51,808 bases of DNA from assembly GCA_947631565.1 (NCBI GenBank), contig CANRLV010000008.1:1-51808 (forward strand), written 5' to 3'. Positions 13,403 through 44,148 of the stretch are shown one piece after another (position 1 is the first letter of the stretch; each line of letters opens with the position of its first letter). A program made the translations under genes and the position numbers. Below the pieces are notes generated by a model. The model ran no database searches. It worked only from the letters and a program-made list of their open reading frames with translations, and was not told the origin of the DNA. Origin of the DNA: an uncultured Gemmiger sp. (GTDB taxonomy: Bacteria; Bacillota; Clostridia; Oscillospirales; Ruminococcaceae).

Positions 13403-14158
13403 TTATTGCAGGCCGTTGTACTGTGCGTCGTCCACCGGCTCCAGCCATTCGTTGGAGCCGTTTTCGCCCGGCACCTCCACGGCCAGATGGCTGAACCAAC
13501 TGTCCGGCGCGGCGCCGTGCCAGTGCTTGACACCGGCCGGGATGTTGACGCAGTCGCCCGGCTTCATCTCCACGGCGGGCTTGCCCCACTCCTGATAGTA
13601 TCCGCGCCCGCCGACGCAGATCAAAATCTGCCCGCCGCCCTTGTCGGCATGGTGGACGTGCCAGTTGTTGCGGCAGCCCGGCTCAAAGGTCACGTTGAAG
13701 ATGCCCACCTGCTCCTTGGAGACGGGGGCCAGATAGCTCTGCCCGCTGAAATACTGCTTGAAGCCGTCGTTGGGCGCGCCGATGGGGAAAAGGATGGTCT
13801 GCTGGTAACGGTCTTTGTCCGTCAGGGCCGGCCCGTCGTCCTTCCACACATCCTTGGCCAGCCGGAACACGGCCCACGCCTTGGGCCAGCCGACGTAGAA
13901 GCCGACGTGGGTCACGATGGCGGCGATCTCCGACCGGGTGACGCCGTGGGTTTTGGCGTTTTCCAGATGGTAGACGAGCGAGGAATCGGTGACGCCGGAG
14001 CTCATCAGCGCCACCACGGTCAGGATGCAGCGGGTCTTGAGGTCGATGTCGTGGTTGTTCCAGTTCTCGCCAAAGAGAACGTCGTCGTTGAAATGGGCAA
14101 AATCCGGCGCGAAGCTGCCGAGCTGGTCTCTGCCCGCGGTCTGGGTGATCTTTTCCAT
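13403..14158 (-). CDS. Carboxymuconolactone decarboxylase-like / cupin fusion
   Basis: The 251-residue protein joins two domains. Residues 1-110 are a carboxymuconolactone decarboxylase (CMD/AhpD-like) fold (NDDVLFGENWNNHDIDLKTRC, ALMSSGVTDSSLVYHLENAKTHG), without the CxxC of AhpD peroxidase partners. Residues 135-235 are a small cupin with metal-site histidines in NNWHVHHADKGGGQ and in AGVKHWHGAAPDSW. Fusions of this type are usually annotated as CMD-cupin proteins of redox or quinone detoxification operons; the substrate is unknown. AGGAGG precedes the ATG. It is the last gene of the TetR-regulated minus-strand operon. Confidence 0.87.
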   Translation of the reverse strand: MEKITQTAGRDQLGSFAPDFAHFNDDVLFGENWNNHDIDLKTRCILTVVALMSSGVTDSSLVYHLENAKTHGVTRSEIAAIVTHVGFYVGWPKAWAVFRLAKDVWKDDGPALTDKDRYQQTILFPIGAPNDGFKQYFSGQSYLAPVSKEQVGIFNVTFEPGCRNNWHVHHADKGGGQILICVGGRGYYQEWGKPAVEMKPGDCVNIPAGVKHWHGAAPDSWFSHLAVEVPGENGSNEWLEPVDDAQYNGLQ

Positions 14159-26647: not shown

Positions 26648-26693
26648 AAAAATACCGTTCCCACGCCCGAGAGCATGGGAACGGTATTTTTGC
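26648..26693. terminator. Bidirectional terminator of polC and the peptide operon
   Basis: AAAATACCGTTCCCA pairs with TGGGAACGGTATTTT over an 18-base-scale stem, flanked by T-runs on both strands, so it stops polC (+) and the peptide genes (-). Confidence 0.9.
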
Positions 26694-26720: not shown

Positions 26721-26933
26721 TTATCCCTTTGGGTTGAAGGGGCAGCGACCGCCATTAAATGTAAGCGTTACGATCTCAGGGTCCCTATGGTAGGGACAAG
26801 TGTCGACCTGCTTGTCGCAGCCGCCGCAGGTTTTTGTAACAGCTTCATCAAACTTTTGGATCTCCTCGATAGAGGGCATGCCCCCCGCGGCCTTTTCGAG
26901 GGCTTCGTCGTTCAGTTTCTTTTCTTCATTCAT
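26721..26933 (-). CDS. Double-glycine-leader Cys-rich peptide 1
   Basis: The 70-residue product begins MNEEKKLNDEALEKAAGG, a double-glycine leader of the LNxExLxxVxGG kind recognised by C39-peptidase transporters in other systems. The core has TCGGC, then TCPYH and GGRCPFNPKG, i.e. four cysteines in a CxxC...CP...CP pattern. It is the last of four tandem paralogues on this strand. AAGGAGGAACC precedes the ATG and is nearly identical to the site in front of peptide 3. It could be a RiPP/bacteriocin precursor or a small metal-binding exported peptide; no modification enzyme is adjacent. Confidence 0.78.
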   Translation of the reverse strand: MNEEKKLNDEALEKAAGGMPSIEEIQKFDEAVTKTCGGCDKQVDTCPYHRDPEIVTLTFNGGRCPFNPKG

Positions 26934-26946
26934 GGCAGGTTCCTCC

Positions 26947-27144
26947 TTACCACTTGGGCTCGAAAGCTATGCACAGCTCATGCGTGCCATCTCCGACTGC
27001 AGATACTGCCTCAGCGTTGGTCCAACAGGGGCAGGTCAGGATGCTGCCACTATTTTTGCAGTCTCTACAGGTCTGACCTGTGCCTGTACCCCCCCCCGCG
27101 ACCTGGTCGAGGGCTTCGGCGTTCAGTTTCTTTTCTTCGTTCAT
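26947..27144 (-). CDS. Double-glycine-leader Cys-rich peptide 2
   Basis: The 65-residue product has the leader MNEEKKLNAEALDQVAGG and a core with TCRDCKN, LTCPCW and THELC, five cysteines in all. The core is clearly related to peptide 3: both share TCxDCxN-x-GS, TCPxW-x-N, an AV pair and GTH-x-LC. I chose the ATG at 27144 because the leader begins there, although GGCGGGA is a weaker ribosome-binding site than those of its siblings. Thirteen bases separate it from each neighbour's coding region on the left side, consistent with an operon. Confidence 0.78.
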   Translation of the reverse strand: MNEEKKLNAEALDQVAGGGTGTGQTCRDCKNSGSILTCPCWTNAEAVSAVGDGTHELCIAFEPKW

Positions 27145-27157
27145 GGCAGGTCCCGCC

Positions 27158-27352
27158 TTAGTTCTCGGTCTCGAAAAAGTGGCACAGCGGATGCGTGCCA
27201 TTTTTGATTTCAGCGACTGCCTTAGGGTTGGACCAATAGGGGCAGGTCTCGGTGCTGCCAATATTTACGCAGTCGTTACAGGTCATTTCTCTGCCACTGC
27301 CCCCCGCGACCTTTTCGAGGGTCTCGGCGTTCAGCTTCTTTTCTTCGTTCAT
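27158..27352 (-). CDS. Double-glycine-leader Cys-rich peptide 3
   Basis: The 64-residue product has the leader MNEEKKLNAETLEKVAGG and a core with TCNDCVN, ETCPYW and THPLC (four cysteines). It is the closest relative of peptide 2; the differences between them concentrate in non-cysteine core positions and leave the leader almost unchanged, which is the pattern expected of diversifying precursor peptides. AAGGAGG lies at ideal spacing before the ATG at 27352. It follows peptide 4 after 55 bases and precedes peptide 2 by 13. Confidence 0.8.
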   Translation of the reverse strand: MNEEKKLNAETLEKVAGGSGREMTCNDCVNIGSTETCPYWSNPKAVAEIKNGTHPLCHFFETEN

Positions 27353-27407
27353 AGCAGGTTCCTCCTTGTGGGTTTGTGTGTGATGGCCGGCAGGCGCGCT
27401 GTGCGGC

Positions 27408-27629
27408 TTATGCGTTGTAGGGGCAGCTGCCACCCATATATGCATAATATATTACCCTCATATCATGATTATGGGGACACGGGTTCGTCTTACAGCCGGC
27501 GCAAGTTTTTGCGACATCGGAAGACCACGCACCCATCTCCGCTTCAGAGGGTATGACGATGGGGTTTACCTCCCCACCGCCCGTGACCTGGTCGAGGGCT
27601 TCGGCGTTCAGCTTCTTCTCTTCGTTCAT
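27408..27629 (-). CDS. Double-glycine-leader Cys-rich peptide 4 (first gene of the operon)
   Basis: The 73-residue product has the leader MNEEKKLNAEALDQVTGG. Its core is longer at the front (EVNPIVIPSEAEMG) and then carries KTCAGC, NPCPHNH and GGSCPYNA, four cysteines. The C-terminal part resembles peptide 1 (TCxGC ... CP ... GGxCPxN). It has a strong AAGGAGG site 6 bases before the ATG and is the promoter-proximal gene of the four-gene cassette, 110 bases downstream of the predicted transcription start, with a structured leader in between. Confidence 0.8.
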   Translation of the reverse strand: MNEEKKLNAEALDQVTGGGEVNPIVIPSEAEMGAWSSDVAKTCAGCKTNPCPHNHDMRVIYYAYMGGSCPYNA

Positions 27630-27745: not shown

Positions 27746-27774
27746 AGTATCCGACAAATCGGGCCTGTTGTCAA
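27746..27774 (-). promoter_or_regulatory. Promoter of the peptide operon
   Basis: On the minus strand TTGACA (27769-27774) and GATACT (27746-27751) are separated by 17 bp. Confidence 0.75.
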
Positions 27775-27984: not shown

Positions 27985-29280
27985 ATGAGCGAGCAAAAGG
28001 ACGTACGGGAGCAGACAAACCCGATCTTCAACACGGCCAAGGCCATGCTGCTGCACTATTGCATCGCGGGCGACCCGGATGCACCTGCCCTGGCGAAAAA
28101 GTTCGGCATCGACGCCGACTCGCTCATCGGCACCGAGGAGCAGAAGATCGCCCTCAGCCTCGATCTGACCGTCACGGTCGAGACCCGCTTCCGCGCCAGC
28201 AACAAAATTGCCGCCAACTACAAAGACAGCACCATCGTGGACATTGCCTGCGGCTATACGCCGCGCGCACTGAATGAGCCGTTCCGGGATATGCACTACA
28301 TCGGCTGTGACCTGCCCGTCGTGACCGAGGAGCTTGCGCCGGTCTACGGCGAGGTGTTTGCCGAGCGCGGCATTATTAAAAACAAGGAATTCCACGCCGC
28401 CGACGCGACGAATTACCGTTCGCTGCGGGACGCACTGGATTCGGTCAACGGCAAGATCACCATCCTGACCGACGGGCTGCTGACCTATTTCAACAATTCG
28501 GAGCTGACCGAGCTCTGCACGAACATCCGCCGCCTGCTGGCGGAATTCGGCGGGCGGTGGATTACCTCCGACCCGGACATGAACCCGCTTTTCATGGCGG
28601 CGCTGACGGCCGTCCGCGGCAAAGCCGCACTCGCGGACCTGCTCAAGGCAAAGGACGCCTACGAGGGCCAGTCGGACACAAACATGGAAGTGCAGAACAT
28701 GACCGTGCTGGCGTTCGATTACGAGAACAGCATGAACACCGTCACCAACTTCCTGCGCACGGTCGGCCTGAAATGGGAGATCGTGCCCATGGCGGACTAT
28801 GTGACGGAGGTCCACAGCCTGGCCGGGTATCCTGACGAGACAAAGGCGGCGTACCTGAAATCGCTGGAAAACGTGCACATCTGGATCTTCACGCCCGATG
28901 AAAACTACAAGGAGGCCGAGGCCGACTATGACGGCGAGGCCTTTGGCCTGAAGGCGCGGGTGCGCGGCGGCACGATGGATATCGCGCTGCGCGGCCGTTT
29001 GGACACCCTGACCGCGCCGGCGCTGCTGGAGAAATTCGAGAGCGTGAAGGAGGGCGTGACGGCCTGCACCGTGAACATGAAGGAGCTCGATTATGTTTCC
29101 TCGGCGGGCTTGCGCGTTTTGCTGATGATGTACAAGGCCCTGGACGGTAACATGAAGCTGGAGAATGTCAACGACGAGGTCAAAGAGATCCTCGAAGTGA
29201 CCGGGTTTGGGCAGTATTTCCTACAAGAGGCCGCCCCGCTCTGCCGGGCACAGAAACAAAGCGCCGCCGCCATTTTTTGA
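27985..29280 (+). CDS. SAM-dependent methyltransferase (LCM/PPM1-like) fused to a STAS domain
   Basis: The 431-residue protein has two parts. Residues ~1-290 resemble the leucine-carboxymethyltransferase/O-methyltransferase family (SAM-binding STIVDIACGYTPRAL, the acidic CDLPVV and ITILTDGLLTYFN). Residues ~310-405 are a STAS domain (MDIALRGRLDTLTAPALLEKF, then LDYVSSAGLRVLLMMYKAL), which retains the serine pair where SpoIIAA/RsbV anti-anti-sigma factors are phosphorylated. A methylase that is also a partner-switch component is an unusual combination. AAAGGAGG precedes the ATG. The last codons and the stop lie inside the terminator hairpin, and the tail duplicates at 30710. Target of methylation is unknown. 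Confidence 0.82.
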   Translation: MSEQKDVREQTNPIFNTAKAMLLHYCIAGDPDAPALAKKFGIDADSLIGTEEQKIALSLDLTVTVETRFRASNKIAANYKDSTIVDIACGYTPRALNEPFRDMHYIGCDLPVVTEELAPVYGEVFAERGIIKNKEFHAADATNYRSLRDALDSVNGKITILTDGLLTYFNNSELTELCTNIRRLLAEFGGRWITSDPDMNPLFMAALTAVRGKAALADLLKAKDAYEGQSDTNMEVQNMTVLAFDYENSMNTVTNFLRTVGLKWEIVPMADYVTEVHSLAGYPDETKAAYLKSLENVHIWIFTPDENYKEAEADYDGEAFGLKARVRGGTMDIALRGRLDTLTAPALLEKFESVKEGVTACTVNMKELDYVSSAGLRVLLMMYKALDGNMKLENVNDEVKEILEVTGFGQYFLQEAAPLCRAQKQSAAAIF

Positions 29281-29327
29281 AATGGCGGCGGCGCTTGTTG
29301 GTTATGCCCCAAAACCGCGGGGGACGG
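29206..29327 (+). repeat. ~120-bp direct repeat, copy 1 (3' end of the STAS gene plus terminator)
   Basis: This segment, running from the FGQYFL codons through the hairpin and beyond to CCCAAAACCGCG, recurs at 30710-30832 in the same orientation with roughly 80% identity. The two copies bracket the DUF4143 ATPase gene. Confidence 0.85.
29260..29295 (+). terminator. Terminator of the methyltransferase-STAS gene
   Basis: A 16-bp stem (AGCGCCGCCGCCATTT with its complement) has the stop codon of the gene in its loop region; it is followed by TGTTGG, so the T-run is modest. Confidence 0.7.
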
Positions 29328-29454: not shown

Positions 29455-30681
29455 ATGGTACAACGGATAGAGCACCTGAAAACACTCGCCTTGTGGCGGG
29501 ACAAAAATGTGATCAAAGTCATAACCGGCATTCGCCGCTGCGGAAAGTCCACCCTTCTGGAGCAATTCCAGGAGCAGCTCCGCAAAAGCGGCGTTGCGGA
29601 TGCGCAGATCCTTTCGCTGAATTTTGAAAAACTCGACTATGAAGACCTTTTGGATCACAAGGCGCTGTATCAATATGTCATGAGCCGCCTGCAAAAAGGG
29701 AAAACCACCTATGTATTCCTGGATGAGGTCCAGCTGGTGCCGGATTTCCAGAAGGCGGTAGACAGCTTATACATCCAAAAAAACGTGGATCTGTATATTA
29801 CCGGTTCAAATGCCTGGCTGCTCTCGGGGGAGTTGGCCACGCTTTTGTCGGGCCGGTATGTCGAGATCAATTTGCTGCCCTTCTCTTTTGCCGAATACTG
29901 CCGTGCCAGAGATGTGTCCGGCGATGCGGCGCTTGCCGAGTATCTGCGCTGGGGCGGGTTCCCCTATGTTGCATCGCTCGACAAGGTGCAGGAGCAGGCG
30001 GATACCTATCTGGAGGGCATCTACAACACCATCATCGTGAAGGACATTGACCTCCGCCAGCGGCGCAGGGAATACGATCCCAACAAGCGCAAGGTGACGG
30101 ACATCACCTTGTTAAAAAATATCTCCCGCTTTCTGGCCGGGTCGGTCGGCAGCCCTGTATCGGACAAAAGCATTGCGGACTATATCACTTCTTCCGGCAG
30201 AAAGGTTTCTCAAAGCACGATCAGTGATTATGTTGAGGCTCTGGTGGAGCCGTATATCTTTTATCCCGTGCAGAGATTTGACGTTTCCGGGAAGCAGCTT
30301 CTCAAGCAGAATCGAAAGCTCTACATTGCCGATTTGGGTCTGCGCCGCCATCTGCTTGCCCGCCGAGAATATGATTTGGGCTATTCTTTGGAAAACGTTG
30401 TATACTTTGAATTGCTGCGGCGGGGGTATCGCGTCAGTGTCGGCAAGCTCGGTCAAAAAGAGATCGATTTTGTCGCGGAAAAGGACGCGCGCACGGTGTA
30501 TGTGCAGGTCACGGCGTCCATGACCGACGCCGCCGTATTTGAGCGCGAGATGGCGCCGCTGCAGGCCATCCGGGACAATTATCCCAAGATCGTGTTGACG
30601 CTGGACCGGTTCACCGCCGGCAGCTACGAGGGGATCGAGGTCATCAACGCGGTGGATTGGCTGATGGAACAGTACGATTGA
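29455..30681 (+). CDS. AAA ATPase with DUF4143 domain
   Basis: The 408-residue protein has an N-terminal AAA_14 ATPase: Walker A in TGIRRCGKSTLLEQF, Walker B in TTYVFLDEVQLV, and a sensor region LYITGSNAWLLSGELATLLSGR. The C-terminal DUF4143 domain ends in a PD-(D/E)xK-like nuclease motif (ENVVYFELLRRGY, then KEIDFVAEKDARTVYVQV). Such proteins are abundant, often multi-copy and frequently transferred, with unknown biological role. The ATG at 29455 has GGGAGG at 9-base spacing. The gene is less GC-rich than its surroundings and sits between two direct repeats, both signs of insertion. Confidence 0.9.
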   Translation: MVQRIEHLKTLALWRDKNVIKVITGIRRCGKSTLLEQFQEQLRKSGVADAQILSLNFEKLDYEDLLDHKALYQYVMSRLQKGKTTYVFLDEVQLVPDFQKAVDSLYIQKNVDLYITGSNAWLLSGELATLLSGRYVEINLLPFSFAEYCRARDVSGDAALAEYLRWGGFPYVASLDKVQEQADTYLEGIYNTIIVKDIDLRQRRREYDPNKRKVTDITLLKNISRFLAGSVGSPVSDKSIADYITSSGRKVSQSTISDYVEALVEPYIFYPVQRFDVSGKQLLKQNRKLYIADLGLRRHLLARREYDLGYSLENVVYFELLRRGYRVSVGKLGQKEIDFVAEKDARTVYVQVTASMTDAAVFEREMAPLQAIRDNYPKIVLTLDRFTAGSYEGIEVINAVDWLMEQYD

Positions 30682-30709: not shown

Positions 30710-30832
30710 TTTGGGCAGTATTTCCTGTAAGCGGGGCCGCCCCGCTTTGCCGGGCACAGAAACAAAAGGCCGCCGCCATTTTTTGAAATGGCGGCGGCGC
30801 TGATTTTGTCATGACCCAAAACCGCGCGGGGC
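30710..30832 (+). repeat. ~120-bp direct repeat, copy 2
   Basis: The copy begins with the same TTTGGGCAGTATTTCCT as the STAS gene's 3' end but meets an immediate stop (TAA) after the FGQYFL codons. It includes a second version of the terminator hairpin and ends near CCCAAAACCGCG. Confidence 0.85.
30768..30800. terminator. Bidirectional terminator of the ATPase and peptide 5
   Basis: GCCGCCGCCATTT and AAATGGCGGCGGC form a 13-bp stem. On the minus strand it is followed by CTTTTG, so it can end the transporter-peptide 5 transcript as well. Confidence 0.75.
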
Positions 30833-30876: not shown

Positions 30877-31074
30877 TCATTCAGTCGGAACAAATTCCAT
30901 GTAATCCGTGGTGCCGCAATGTGGGCAGTGGGGCGGCGTTTGTTTGGAGTGGTGTATTCCAGCCCACCGCCAATGACAGCGCGAGCAGCGGAAGTATCCT
31001 AATACCAAGGGCCCGCTCCCGCCCCCGGCGACCTCTTCCAACGTCTGTTCGTTGAGCGTCTTTTCCTCGTCCAT
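30877..31074 (-). CDS. Double-glycine-leader Cys-rich peptide 5
   Basis: The 65-residue product begins MDEEKTLNEQTLEEVAGG, the same double-glycine leader family as peptides 1-4 but the most diverged. The core has FRCSRCHWRW and PPHCPHCGTTD, two CxxC pairs that look like a zinc ribbon, and ends in an acidic tail. AGAAGGGAG lies upstream. Its start is only 21 bases after the stop of the ABC transporter on the same strand, so it is expected to be made from the transporter mRNA, whose leader carries the same structured element as the peptide 1-4 operon. Confidence 0.76.
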   Translation of the reverse strand: MDEEKTLNEQTLEEVAGGGSGPLVLGYFRCSRCHWRWAGIHHSKQTPPHCPHCGTTDYMEFVPTE

Positions 31075-31095: not shown

Positions 31096-33771
31096 TCAAA
31101 TCGTGAAGATAAGGCGGTTCACGCCGTCGGTACAGGTGTGCCGGTAGCTTTGAACGGCGGCCTTTACCAGCTTGACGGAAAGCTCGTCGCCCTCCCGCAT
31201 GGGGTCAAAGGCGGCGCCGCGCCAGGTGAAGTGCATCTCCAGCCGGTCCTCCTTCTCGGCGTATTCCACCGATACGTCCACCGGGAAGGATGCGCCCGGG
31301 CAGGGGATGATGCTCTGCGCCAGGATCTCCTCGTACACGCTTTGCATAGCCAGCACCCGCCTGCGGCCCAGCAGGTTCTTCTCGCCGAAGCGGCGGAGGC
31401 TCTCGGACTGGCCGATGAAGTCGTAATCCGCGGACCGGGCCGAGAGGGAGAGCGTCTTGAGCCGCTTGACAAAGACCCGGGTCCGGTCCTCACGCGGGTG
31501 GTCGAAGATCTCCTCCGGGGAGCCCTGCTCAAAGATGACGCCCTCGTCCATATAGAACACCCGGGTGGACACGTCGCGGGCAAACTGCATCTCGTGGGTG
31601 ACGATGACCATGGTCAGGCCCTCCGCCGCCAGCTGCTTCATGACGGTCAGGACCTCCCCCACCATGGTGGGGTCAAGGGCGCTGGTGGGCTCGTCAAAAA
31701 GGACCAGCTCCGGCTCCATCGCAAGGGTCCGGGCGATGGCGGCGCGCTGGCGCTGCCCGCCGGAAAGCTCGTCGGGGTAGCGGTCGGCCTTCTCCGCCAT
31801 ACCCACCATACGCAAAAGCCGCATGGCGTTTGCCGCCGCATCCCGTTCCGGCACGCCGCCCAGCAGCATGGGGCCAAGGATGATGTTCTCCATCACGGTA
31901 AGATGGCCGAACAGGTTGAAGGATTGGAACACCATGCCCATCCGCCGGCGCACCGCGCCAAGCTGCCTGGGTTTGGCTGCGGTCATCTCCTGCCCGAAAG
32001 CCACGATGCTGCCCTGTGTGGGCGTCTCCAGCCCGTTCAGGCAGCGCAGCAGCGTGCTCTTGCCGGTGCCGGAGGGGCCGATGACGGTGACCACCTCGCC
32101 GCGGCGTATCTCGGCGTTCACATCCTGCAGCGGCGTGACGTTGGGGTACGCCTTTTTCAGGTGGGATACGGTGACGAGGGGCGCGTCCGTGTCTGTGTTC
32201 TCGCCCTTGAAGCGGGCGGGGGCGGGCGGAGGGGCGGCGTCCGGCTCGCCGTAGGTCTTGCGGGGACGGCGTTTGGGGTCCAGCCGCCTTTCCGCCACGC
32301 GCAGCACCGAGGTCAGCAGCCAGGCCAGCAGGAAGTAGATCAGCGCCGACGCCAGCAGCGGGAAGAACGCCTCAAAGGTCGCGCTGCGGATCAGGTCCGT
32401 CACCCGCGTCAGGTCCTGCACCGCGATGTAGCCCACGATGGAGGTCATCTTCACCAGCGAGATGAACTCGCCCCGGTAGACGGGAAGGATGTGCCGCGCC
32501 GCCTGGGGGGCAATGATTTTGGTAAAGGTCCTGACCCGGTCGAAGCCAAGGGCCACGGCGGCCTCCCACTGGCCCCTGTCCACGGCGTCGATGCCCGTGC
32601 GCATCATCTCGGACACATAGGCCGCAAAGTTGATGGAGAAGGCCACGACGGACACCGCCACGCCGCTGATGCTCACGCCGGCGAACACGATGTAGAACAG
32701 CACCAGCAGCAGCACCAGCAGCGGCACGCCCTGGATGATGCCCACCAGACACGCCACGGCGGCGGACAGGACACGCAGGCGGCTGCGGCGCATCAGGCAC
32801 AGGCCGAAGCCCAGCACGGTGCCGAACAAAACCGAGAACAGTGAGATGATCGCCGTGACGCCGAGGCCCGACAAAATCATCTCCCAGCGGTTTTCACGGA
32901 GGAAGGTCTTTTCAAAGCTGGTCGAGAGCCGGTCAAAAAAGCCGCCGCCGGTGCGCACCGCTGCACCCGAACGGACCAGAAAGGCCGTTTCGGAGGTGTA
33001 GATGGGGTCGGAGAAGTCGATGCGCTCCTGGCGCTCCGGGGTGACGTTCAGGTTGGTCATGACGCAGTCGATGACGCCGGTCTGGGCCGCGGCGATGACG
33101 CCGTCAAAGTCATAGAGGTCAAACTCGACCCCCGCCCCCAGCCAGGATGCCAGGCGCGTGGCCATCTCGATGTCAAAGCCGCAGATGCGGTTGTCCTTGT
33201 AGTAGCTGAAGGGCTTCACGAACCCGGTGGTGCCCACCCTCAGCGTGATGATGGGGTCCTGTGGCAGAGGGATGTCGGGCATGGTCTCGTCGGCTTGGTC
33301 GATCCACCGGCGCTTCATATCGTCCAGCGTGCCGTCCGCCTTGATGGAATCCAAAAATGCGTTGATCTTCTCGCGCAGGTCGGGGATCTCCGTCTTGCGG
33401 GACACGCCGATGGCGATGTCCGTGATGTCCCCCATGGTCTCGTCAAGGATCTTGACCCCCGCAAGGCCCCCGGCTAGGGCGCAGCGGAGCATGGTGGCGT
33501 CAAAGGCGAAGGCGTCCAGCTTGCCCTGCTGCACGGCCAGATACGCGGTGGCGCTGTCGGAGTAACGGTTGACGGTCACGTTGCGGAAGCTTTTGGTCAC
33601 CGCCGTGTCGCCGGCGGAGCCCATGGCCACGCCCACGGTGCGCCCCGGCTGGTCCAGCTGTGCCAGCGACGTGATCAGGTCGTCCTTCCCGCCGCAGCCC
33701 GCCAGCAGGCAGGCAAGCAGCAGGAGCACCAGCGTCATCGCCGCCGGCTTGACAGACTGCTTTTTCATCAT
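31096..33771 (-). CDS. All-in-one polar amino-acid ABC transporter with RsbW-like C-terminus
   Basis: One 891-residue chain holds a whole importer. A lipoprotein signal ([13 protein letters not shown]) is followed by a family 3 solute-binding domain (about 40-285; [35 protein letters not shown]). A permease domain (about 300-505) has the EAA loop [20 protein letters not shown]. The ATPase (about 535-775) has Walker [13 protein letters not shown], signature LSGGQRQR and Walker [13 protein letters not shown]; it resembles GlnQ/GlnH/GlnP. The first binding-domain segment (about 30-160) looks like a partial second binding domain. The last ~120 residues resemble a degenerate RsbW-type HATPase ([29 protein letters not shown]), lacking the N-box asparagine. 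The natural substrate cannot be read. Confidence 0.88.
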
Positions 33772-43806: not shown

Positions 43807-44148
43807 TCAGCCAAGGCCGGGGATGTTCATGCCGCCGGTCAAGGCGCCCATCTGTTCCTCGGCGTCCTTGTCGACGGCGGCCACCGCGCTGTTGACGGCG
43901 GCGGCGACCAGGTCCTCCAGCATCTCGATGTCGTCGGGATCCACGGCCTCCGGCTTGATGGCCACGGCGGTCACGGCGTGCTTGCCGGTCATCGTCACGC
44001 TGACCAGTCCGCCGCTGGCGGTGCCGGTGTACTCGGTGGCCTCCAGCTCGGCCTGCTTGGCGCGCATATCCTCCTGCAGCTTCTGCACCTGGCGCATCAT
44101 CGCACCGGGGTCCTGGCGGCCGTAGCCCTGGGGCAGTCTTGCTTTCAT
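43807..44148 (-). CDS. ybaB: YbaB/EbfC nucleoid-associated protein
   Basis: The 113-residue DNA-binding protein begins with a glycine-rich stretch and the conserved MMRQVQKLQEDMRAKQAELEATEYTG helix, followed by SGGLVSVTMTGKHAVTAVAIKPEAVDPDDIEMLEDLVAAAVNSA. YbaB dimers bind duplex DNA without strict specificity. AAAAGGAGA precedes the ATG. It lies between dnaX and recR, which is its usual place. Confidence 0.94.
   Translation of the reverse strand: MKARLPQGYGRQDPGAMMRQVQKLQEDMRAKQAELEATEYTGTASGGLVSVTMTGKHAVTAVAIKPEAVDPDDIEMLEDLVAAAVNSAVAAVDKDAEEQMGALTGGMNIPGLG

Follow-up and report, generated by a model that had tools for sequence, protein, structure and literature searches.

The closest described counterparts of the system reported here are the NHLP and Nif11 precursors with their NHLM exporter (TIGR03793 and TIGR03798 with TIGR03794, TIGR03796 and TIGR03797; Haft et al. 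2010, PMC2887384). Class II bacteriocins and ComC-type pheromones (Pfam ComC and Bacteriocin_IIc) have the same short double-glycine leader and small core as the peptides treated below, and DUF5651 (PF18892) and zinc ribbons such as Zn_ribbon_8 or the FmdB type share with these cores the cysteine spacing and some residues.

How does the present locus compare? By the window we mean the whole stretch of 51,808 nucleotides that was analysed. It belongs to a 2.47-Mb draft genome (G000) in 140 contigs, 89.2% complete and 5.05% contaminated. The peptide genes and the adjoining repeat are as follows.

26648..26691, no strand: inverted repeat with 19-nt arms, between a polC-type gene and the peptide array
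26721..26933, minus strand: peptide gene 1 (70 aa), last of the array; leader MNEEKKLNDEALEKAAGG, core TCGGC...CPY...C
26947..27144, minus strand: peptide gene 2 (65 aa), five cysteines; nine-G run at the leader/core junction
27158..27352, minus strand: peptide gene 3 (64 aa)
27408..27629, minus strand: peptide gene 4 (73 aa), first of the array
30877..31074, minus strand: peptide gene 5 (65 aa), same leader, zinc-ribbon-like CxxC...CxxC core

The inverted repeat is a possible two-way terminator. The open reading frames, the alignments and a 70-base repeat bear out the description in an earlier note on this DNA of four tandem small genes with nearly invariant GG leaders and diverse cores carrying four cysteines. 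Its cassette of four stands as a tandem array, but the fifth gene had been overlooked; similarly, the near-identical ribosome-binding sites that it reported are those of peptides 1–3, and that of peptide 4 differs (AAGGAGGTACCCC). The listed reading frame of peptide gene 3 starts at 27445, its leader at 27352 behind AAGGAGG. Peptides 1–4 are 64–73 residues long with leaders of the form MNEEKKLN(A/D)E(A/T)L(E/D)(K/Q)(V/A)(A/T)GG, and the window leaders, 18 residues ending in GG, precede cores of 46–55 residues. Pairwise, the leaders of peptides 1–4 match at 13–17 of 18 residues and 81–91% of nucleotides, the cores at 59–74% of aligned nucleotides; T35, C36, C39, C46, P47 and C64 are invariant. 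The 70-base repeat spans start and leader and occurs in five copies, 63–90% identical to the reference copy (63% in peptide gene 5). When peptide 4 was used as query against the whole genome, peptides 1, 2 and 3 were returned at E 2.8e-11, 9e-4 and 0.017. Leader-profile E-values in G000 of 2e-9 to 4e-7 (3.6e-7 for peptide 5) are partly circular, the profile including these leaders; a weak match at C1:42191 (E 0.07) yielded no peptide by the peptide filter. The window peptides have what marks double-glycine precursors, a conserved N-terminal leader ending in GG before differing cores. Similarity beyond chance among the window leaders is confirmed, as is the presence of the same leader type in other genomes.

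As in the NHLP/Nif11 systems covered by PMC2887384, the exporter families are the same, a GG-ending leader is shared by differing cores and there are several precursors per genome. Unlike the precursors described there, those of the window have a leader of just 18 residues and cores that resemble zinc fingers; beside the listed arrays no TOMM or lanthionine enzyme was seen, and the set includes SpoIIE/STAS genes and a recurring promoter. None of the five window peptides matches the NHLP/Nif11 leader models (Pfam at E<=1, NCBIfam at E<=10), and we do not assign them to those families.

On the coding strand, G is repeated at the GG codons, nine times in peptide gene 2 (window 27089-27097) and six times in peptide genes 1 and 3. 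The radical-SAM-linked leaders of two rabbit-gut genomes described below have runs of seven to ten (L188 1908 and 2377; L189 7645 and 7196), and at these loci some leader reading frames stop right behind the run, with a second leader and core in another frame. The runs might be a phase-variable switch, or else sequencing or assembly error.

Is the family found elsewhere? Two rabbit-gut MAGs of the Oscillospiraceae, G482 and G483, have arrays of the same peptide family, as does G514, a genome of the same order and another taxonomic family. The leader HMM search that the earlier note had proposed was productive, giving 59 matches in G482, 60 in G483 and 6 in G000 at E<=10, some of those in the rabbit MAGs being weak. 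Over 394 genomes of the order, it was positive in G000 and G514 (2/394), the latter with 10 matches at E<=0.001. A 70-aa query over 150 relatives was positive in three, G000 and two marginal cases, so that neither this query in its 150 relatives nor the leader profile in its 394 genomes gave a clear match in other species of the genus. Scanning the collected genome contigs yielded five loci, all in the two rabbit-gut MAGs, which were then searched whole as G482 and G483. A whole-peptide profile run at E<=1 over 396 genomes of the family had 145 positives including G000, the best outside G000 at E 0.0017; those listed outside G000 were mostly partial and were not counted as members. A profile scan of viral contigs, made with a viral origin in mind, found no relative.

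The stretches read of G482, G483 and G514 hold 107 family peptides. The full set of 112 (5 from G000, 45 from G482, 46 from G483 and 16 from G514) was drawn from stretches around leader matches by a filter that demands a ribosome-binding site; one false positive in the window, at 44100, was excluded. At least three cysteines are present in 96 of the 112, or in 71 peptides after removal of near-duplicates. Leaders are 17–34 residues long in the filtered peptides, against 18 in the window. The core types CxxC-C(P)-C, CxxC-CxxC, cysteine-free and other number 21, 15, 8 and 1 in G482, 23, 15, 6 and 2 in G483, and 12, 2, 1 and 1 in G514; the window has three of the first and two of the second, the fifth cysteine of peptide 2 also fitting the second pattern. 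Among or near leader-peptide genes of a rabbit MAG there are also large secreted-looking proteins with Sel1-like repeats, as judged by eye (L058 6025-11376 and 12378-13640; L192 7316-12001).

Do the cores share more than the spacing of their cysteines? The 71 dereplicated cores matched 75 Pfam families at E<=0.01, against 5 for a control in which every cysteine was fixed and all other residues of the same cores were shuffled. Among the 25 families listed of the 75, most are zinc fingers or ribbons. At most three of the 71 cores fall in any one family, and one core may match many zinc models, so that the family counts overlap and do not tell what proportion of the cores is zinc-like. Eight relatives' peptides were scanned with their leaders: three pass a Pfam cut-off (DUF5651, zf-LSD1 and Paired_CXXCH_1), one matches zinc ribbons below cut-off and the other four match nothing of zinc type. 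The DUF5651 match of a relative's peptide reaches 29.8 bits (cut-off 27); that of peptide 1 lies below cut-off at 20–22 bits (E 4.8e-4), as do those of peptide 5 to Zn_ribbon_8 (Pfam, E 0.0017) and to the FmdB type (NCBIfam, E 0.0012). No window peptide of the five passes a curated zinc cut-off in Pfam or NCBIfam. What sets the family apart from DUF5651 and the zinc ribbons is that its cores stand alone behind an export-type leader. Judged by its residues, the core set carries more than cysteine spacing and resembles zinc ribbons, and the earlier note's alternative of metal-binding exported peptides fits best. An AlphaFold model of peptide 1 was poor (pLDDT 56) and was set aside as evidence; a search for solved structures with a profile from 16 peptides gave chance-level matches, the best at E 0.3.

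The same leaders and cores bear on another candidate identity, that of class II bacteriocins which carry two disulfides and no modification. Double-glycine leaders would be expected of these, and there are weak leader matches, all below cut-off, to ComC in peptide 3 (E 0.033) and to Bacteriocin_IIc in peptide 5 (E 0.05), with ComC matches in 3 of 16 peptides. We nevertheless regard this as unlikely: the cores as a set are highly varied and zinc-ribbon-like, with four cysteines, and no obvious immunity gene was seen beside the arrays in gene lists inspected by eye, from which very small genes could escape.

If zinc-ribbon-like cores are exported, what exports them? The earlier note saw no lanthipeptide, radical-SAM or C39 gene in the window, and none appears by eye in its gene list, part of which was scanned. 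In relatives the position is different from that in G000. The C39 peptidase domain (PF03412) is present in 7 of 7 relatives chosen for leader matches (five of these matches being weak) and in G514, against a genus background of 3 in 35 genomes. Three loci are laid out as follows.

G482 (L057): STAS, MATE, GH3, SpoIIE-HATPase, STAS-kinase, HlyD-like, C39 ABC1, ABC2, four leader peptides
G483 (L059): same order as in G482, with three leader peptides; GH3 and SpoIIE-HATPase by Pfam
G514: 13 leader peptides, two other genes, STAS, SpoIIE-HATPase with dCache sensor, HlyD-like, ABC1, ABC2, methyltransferase-STAS, leader peptide

ABC1 and ABC2 pass the cut-offs of TIGR03796 and TIGR03797 at 952 and 731 bits in G482 and at 951 and 731 bits in G483, where a second PF03412 match is weak (21 bits). 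In the G482 locus the MATE model is below the NCBIfam cut-off, and the HlyD-like protein is a partial match to TIGR03794 (42 vs 156 bits). The ABC1 frame of G514 is interrupted, stopping after 498 residues (544 bits, profile positions 1–486) and resuming in another ORF, either through mutation or through an error of assembly. Leader peptides stand directly after ABC2 in L057 and L059 and beside exporter genes in L169/L171. Of the genus-mates with C39, G022 and G028 have no leader-profile match and G031 has weak ones (E 0.5–2.5). A GH3-family (auxin-conjugase-like) gene adjoins the SpoIIE gene, by Pfam, at L057 13322-14887 in G482, L059 5223-6863 in G483 and L101 11992-13668 in G022.

An NHLM-type C39 exporter in each of the three genomes with strong leader matches makes export, as the earlier note had supposed, with a cut behind GG the natural reading. 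Zinc-ribbon cores are common among cytosolic proteins, and one core, described below, is joined to a STAS-like fragment instead of a leader; these would suit a leader that tags ordinary small zinc proteins for handling in the cytosol. The GG ending of the leader, and the place of leader peptides right after or beside the exporter, make such a tag very improbable.

Two further genes recur beside the peptides.

27985..29280, plus strand: probable LCM-type methyltransferase with C-terminal STAS (by Pfam), divergent from the array
31096..33771, minus strand: amino-acid ABC fusion of binding protein, permease, ATPase (by Pfam) and C-terminal HATPase-like domain (by hhalign only)

The N-terminal part of the window methyltransferase-STAS protein has no Pfam match; its homologue in G514 passes the Pfam LCM cut-off (25.7 vs 22.3 bits). 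Counting alignments of at least 250 residues, there are nine copies (one in the window, two in G482, two in G483 and four in G514), and all nine lie within 10–398 nt of a leader-peptide gene, in stretches mostly chosen around peptides and to that extent a biased sample. The ABC fusion lies 21 nt upstream of peptide gene 5. Its homologue in G482 (77% identical) is two genes away from the leader peptides behind the exporter, and that in G514 (67–82% identical) lies between a leader-peptide gene and a methyltransferase-STAS gene. Pfam lists no HATPase in the fusion; hhalign pairs its C-terminus with the RsbW-type HATPase domains of SpoIIE proteins (90%, E 1.6e-6, 64 columns). An AAA/DUF4143 ATPase gene at 29455-30681 stands between the two copies of a 67-nt direct repeat (96%; window 29229-29295 and 30735-30801) that takes in a hairpin and the last part of the methyltransferase-STAS gene, an arrangement that looks like a duplicating insertion of the ATPase gene.

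Are the scattered genes tied together by a promoter? The window has one candidate.

27746..27774, minus strand: promoter-like TTGACA-17-GATACT with a spacer common to relatives, 145 nt upstream of peptide gene 4; putatively active

One promoter type, TTGACAAC-G-CC...TCGGATACT, recurs in front of peptide arrays, of methyltransferase-STAS genes and of a radical-SAM gene. The pattern was defined by TTGACAACAGGCCCGATTTGTCGGATACT upstream of peptide gene 4 and TTGACAACCGCCCCAAATTTTCGGATACT upstream of a G514 array. With up to three mismatches it has 15 sites in 4 of 7 genomes, against one for the reversed pattern. These sites precede leader peptides (four, including the two defining sites), a radical-SAM gene (two), methyltransferase-STAS genes (three, all in G514, one 218 nt away), genes of secreted-looking proteins (four, one judged by position in L190) and unrelated or unclear genes (two, one being the second match in G000). 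Under a looser pattern the stretches read have 21 distinct sites (25 lines less four duplicates), of which 16 precede leader peptides, one a methyltransferase-STAS gene and four no called gene; these stretches were picked for the peptides in them, and the two rabbit MAGs contribute many of the sites as orthologous pairs. The window methyltransferase-STAS gene has a different promoter-like site (27825). Over 66 upstream regions, a sigma-A-like score averaged 8.07 vs 7.68 for shuffles, weak alone; the shared spacer, rather than this score, is the informative part of the comparison.

The radical-SAM gene returns us to modification, which the earlier note had inferred, by enzymes in trans if need be. 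Both rabbit MAGs have a radical-SAM gene of 463 aa (L188 and L189; 74.6 bits in Pfam for the copy in L188) with the shared promoter type, and an enzyme 62% identical to it, in G022, adjoins C39, STAS and HlyD-like genes and a Nif11-type precursor (TIGR03798, 27.3 bits, cut-off 32.3). From this one could argue that the four-cysteine cores are true RiPPs, cross-linked in trans by radical-SAM before export. The rabbit-MAG gene is followed, however, by leader peptides of its own with CxC/GGGG-rich cores, which are likely its substrates; no homologue of it or of the G022 enzyme was found in 1.11 Mb (45%) of G000; and by eye no maturation enzyme was seen beside the four-cysteine arrays in the gene lists around those read. 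Thioether peptides usually do not look zinc-ribbon-like, as these cores do. Modification of the four-cysteine cores is possible but not indicated, cross-linking by radical-SAM in trans is in our judgement improbable, and we continue with largely unmodified zinc-ribbon-like cores.

What, then, of the genome from which the window comes? The genome-wide search for C39 that the earlier note had suggested came back empty: G000 (a draft 89% complete) has no PF03412 match. Nor does it have a close NHLM ABC2, the best six candidates being 25–42% identical and two of them contig-end fragments that read as ordinary ABC transporters. A SpoIIE-HATPase protein, at E<=1e-20, is present in 4 of 35 genomes of the genus (G000, G022, G028 and G031), the last three of which have C39. 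In G000 it lies on contig C12.

C12 of G000: MATE, glycosyltransferase-like gene, STAS, SpoIIE-HATPase, hairpin with T run (by eye), 84-residue ORF at 13731-13477

The 84-residue ORF (L066), which has neither a GG leader nor a Pfam match (13477-13731), has a STAS-like start of 29 residues fused in frame to a peptide core. When five sequences were compared, the start matched two STAS genes at the DNA level (E 9e-5 and 3e-4), and the core is 85% identical in DNA to that of peptide 1 (132/156), from 3 nt past the leader to the stop. In relatives, STAS or STAS-kinase genes precede HlyD and ABC1 (G482 and G022), and HlyD, ABC1 and ABC2 directly follow SpoIIE-HATPase in G514 or a separate HATPase gene in G028. 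The fusion and the missing exporter suggest, on this comparison of gene orders, a deletion with one end in a STAS gene and the other in a peptide gene; they would also follow from an assembly chimera or from the absence of a contig.

For G000 itself, then, the earlier note's export has against it the missing C39 and a core homologue without a GG leader. Its peptide genes may be orphans of a lost exporter, their products uncut in the cytoplasm, which would be compatible with export at the level of the family. We take this as a real but minority possibility. C39 and a close ABC2 are missing, and the STAS-core fusion sits beside SpoIIE where relatives keep exporter genes; against it, leaders and frames are intact in five genes, the promoter-like site has been kept, and an exporter contig is possibly missing because the draft is 89% complete in 140 contigs.

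The explanation towards which we lean, if only slightly, is that the family consists of leader-tagged, mostly unmodified mini-proteins that would bind zinc and be exported by an NHLM transporter. The precursors, sharing the acidic leader MxEEKKLxxExLxxVxGG, would be recognised and cut after GG by the NHLM-type peptidase-ABC exporter. The released cores would be stabilised by their four cysteines, most likely around a zinc ion, for the most part with no enzymatic modification. One main exporter in the relatives would serve dozens of scattered peptide genes, many of them under the common promoter type that also stands before methyltransferase-STAS genes, and the whole is probably controlled through partner switching among the SpoIIE phosphatase, STAS and HATPase proteins encoded next to the exporter. 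G000 has the other components, namely peptides, promoter, methyltransferase-STAS gene, ABC-HATPase gene and SpoIIE/STAS genes; its exporter, which was not found, was probably lost in a deletion joining the start of a STAS gene to a peptide core, unless the draft simply lacks it. Two points lower our confidence a little: the zinc evidence is divided among many models, each matching few cores, and the exporter frame of G514 is interrupted.

By analogy, the peptide family would work like a double-glycine-leader NHLM-type export system with an unusual, zinc-finger-like cargo. The exporter families are already known from RiPP work. Dozens of zinc-finger-like mini-proteins per genome as NHLM cargo were not found described in PMC2887384 or in the titles and abstract openings searched, and as far as these sources go that cargo is the new part. 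More tentatively, and with rather less than even confidence, we propose an undescribed secretion regulon of gut Clostridia: an NHLM exporter, dozens of zinc-finger-like mini-proteins per genome, a common promoter, and SpoIIE/STAS/HATPase switching tied to an amino-acid ABC importer and to methyltransferase-STAS proteins. The common leader makes the whole peptide set easy to find and to test. If the proposal is true, gut bacteria would release varied metal-binding small proteins, raising questions of zinc competition, of signalling and of action on neighbours or the host.
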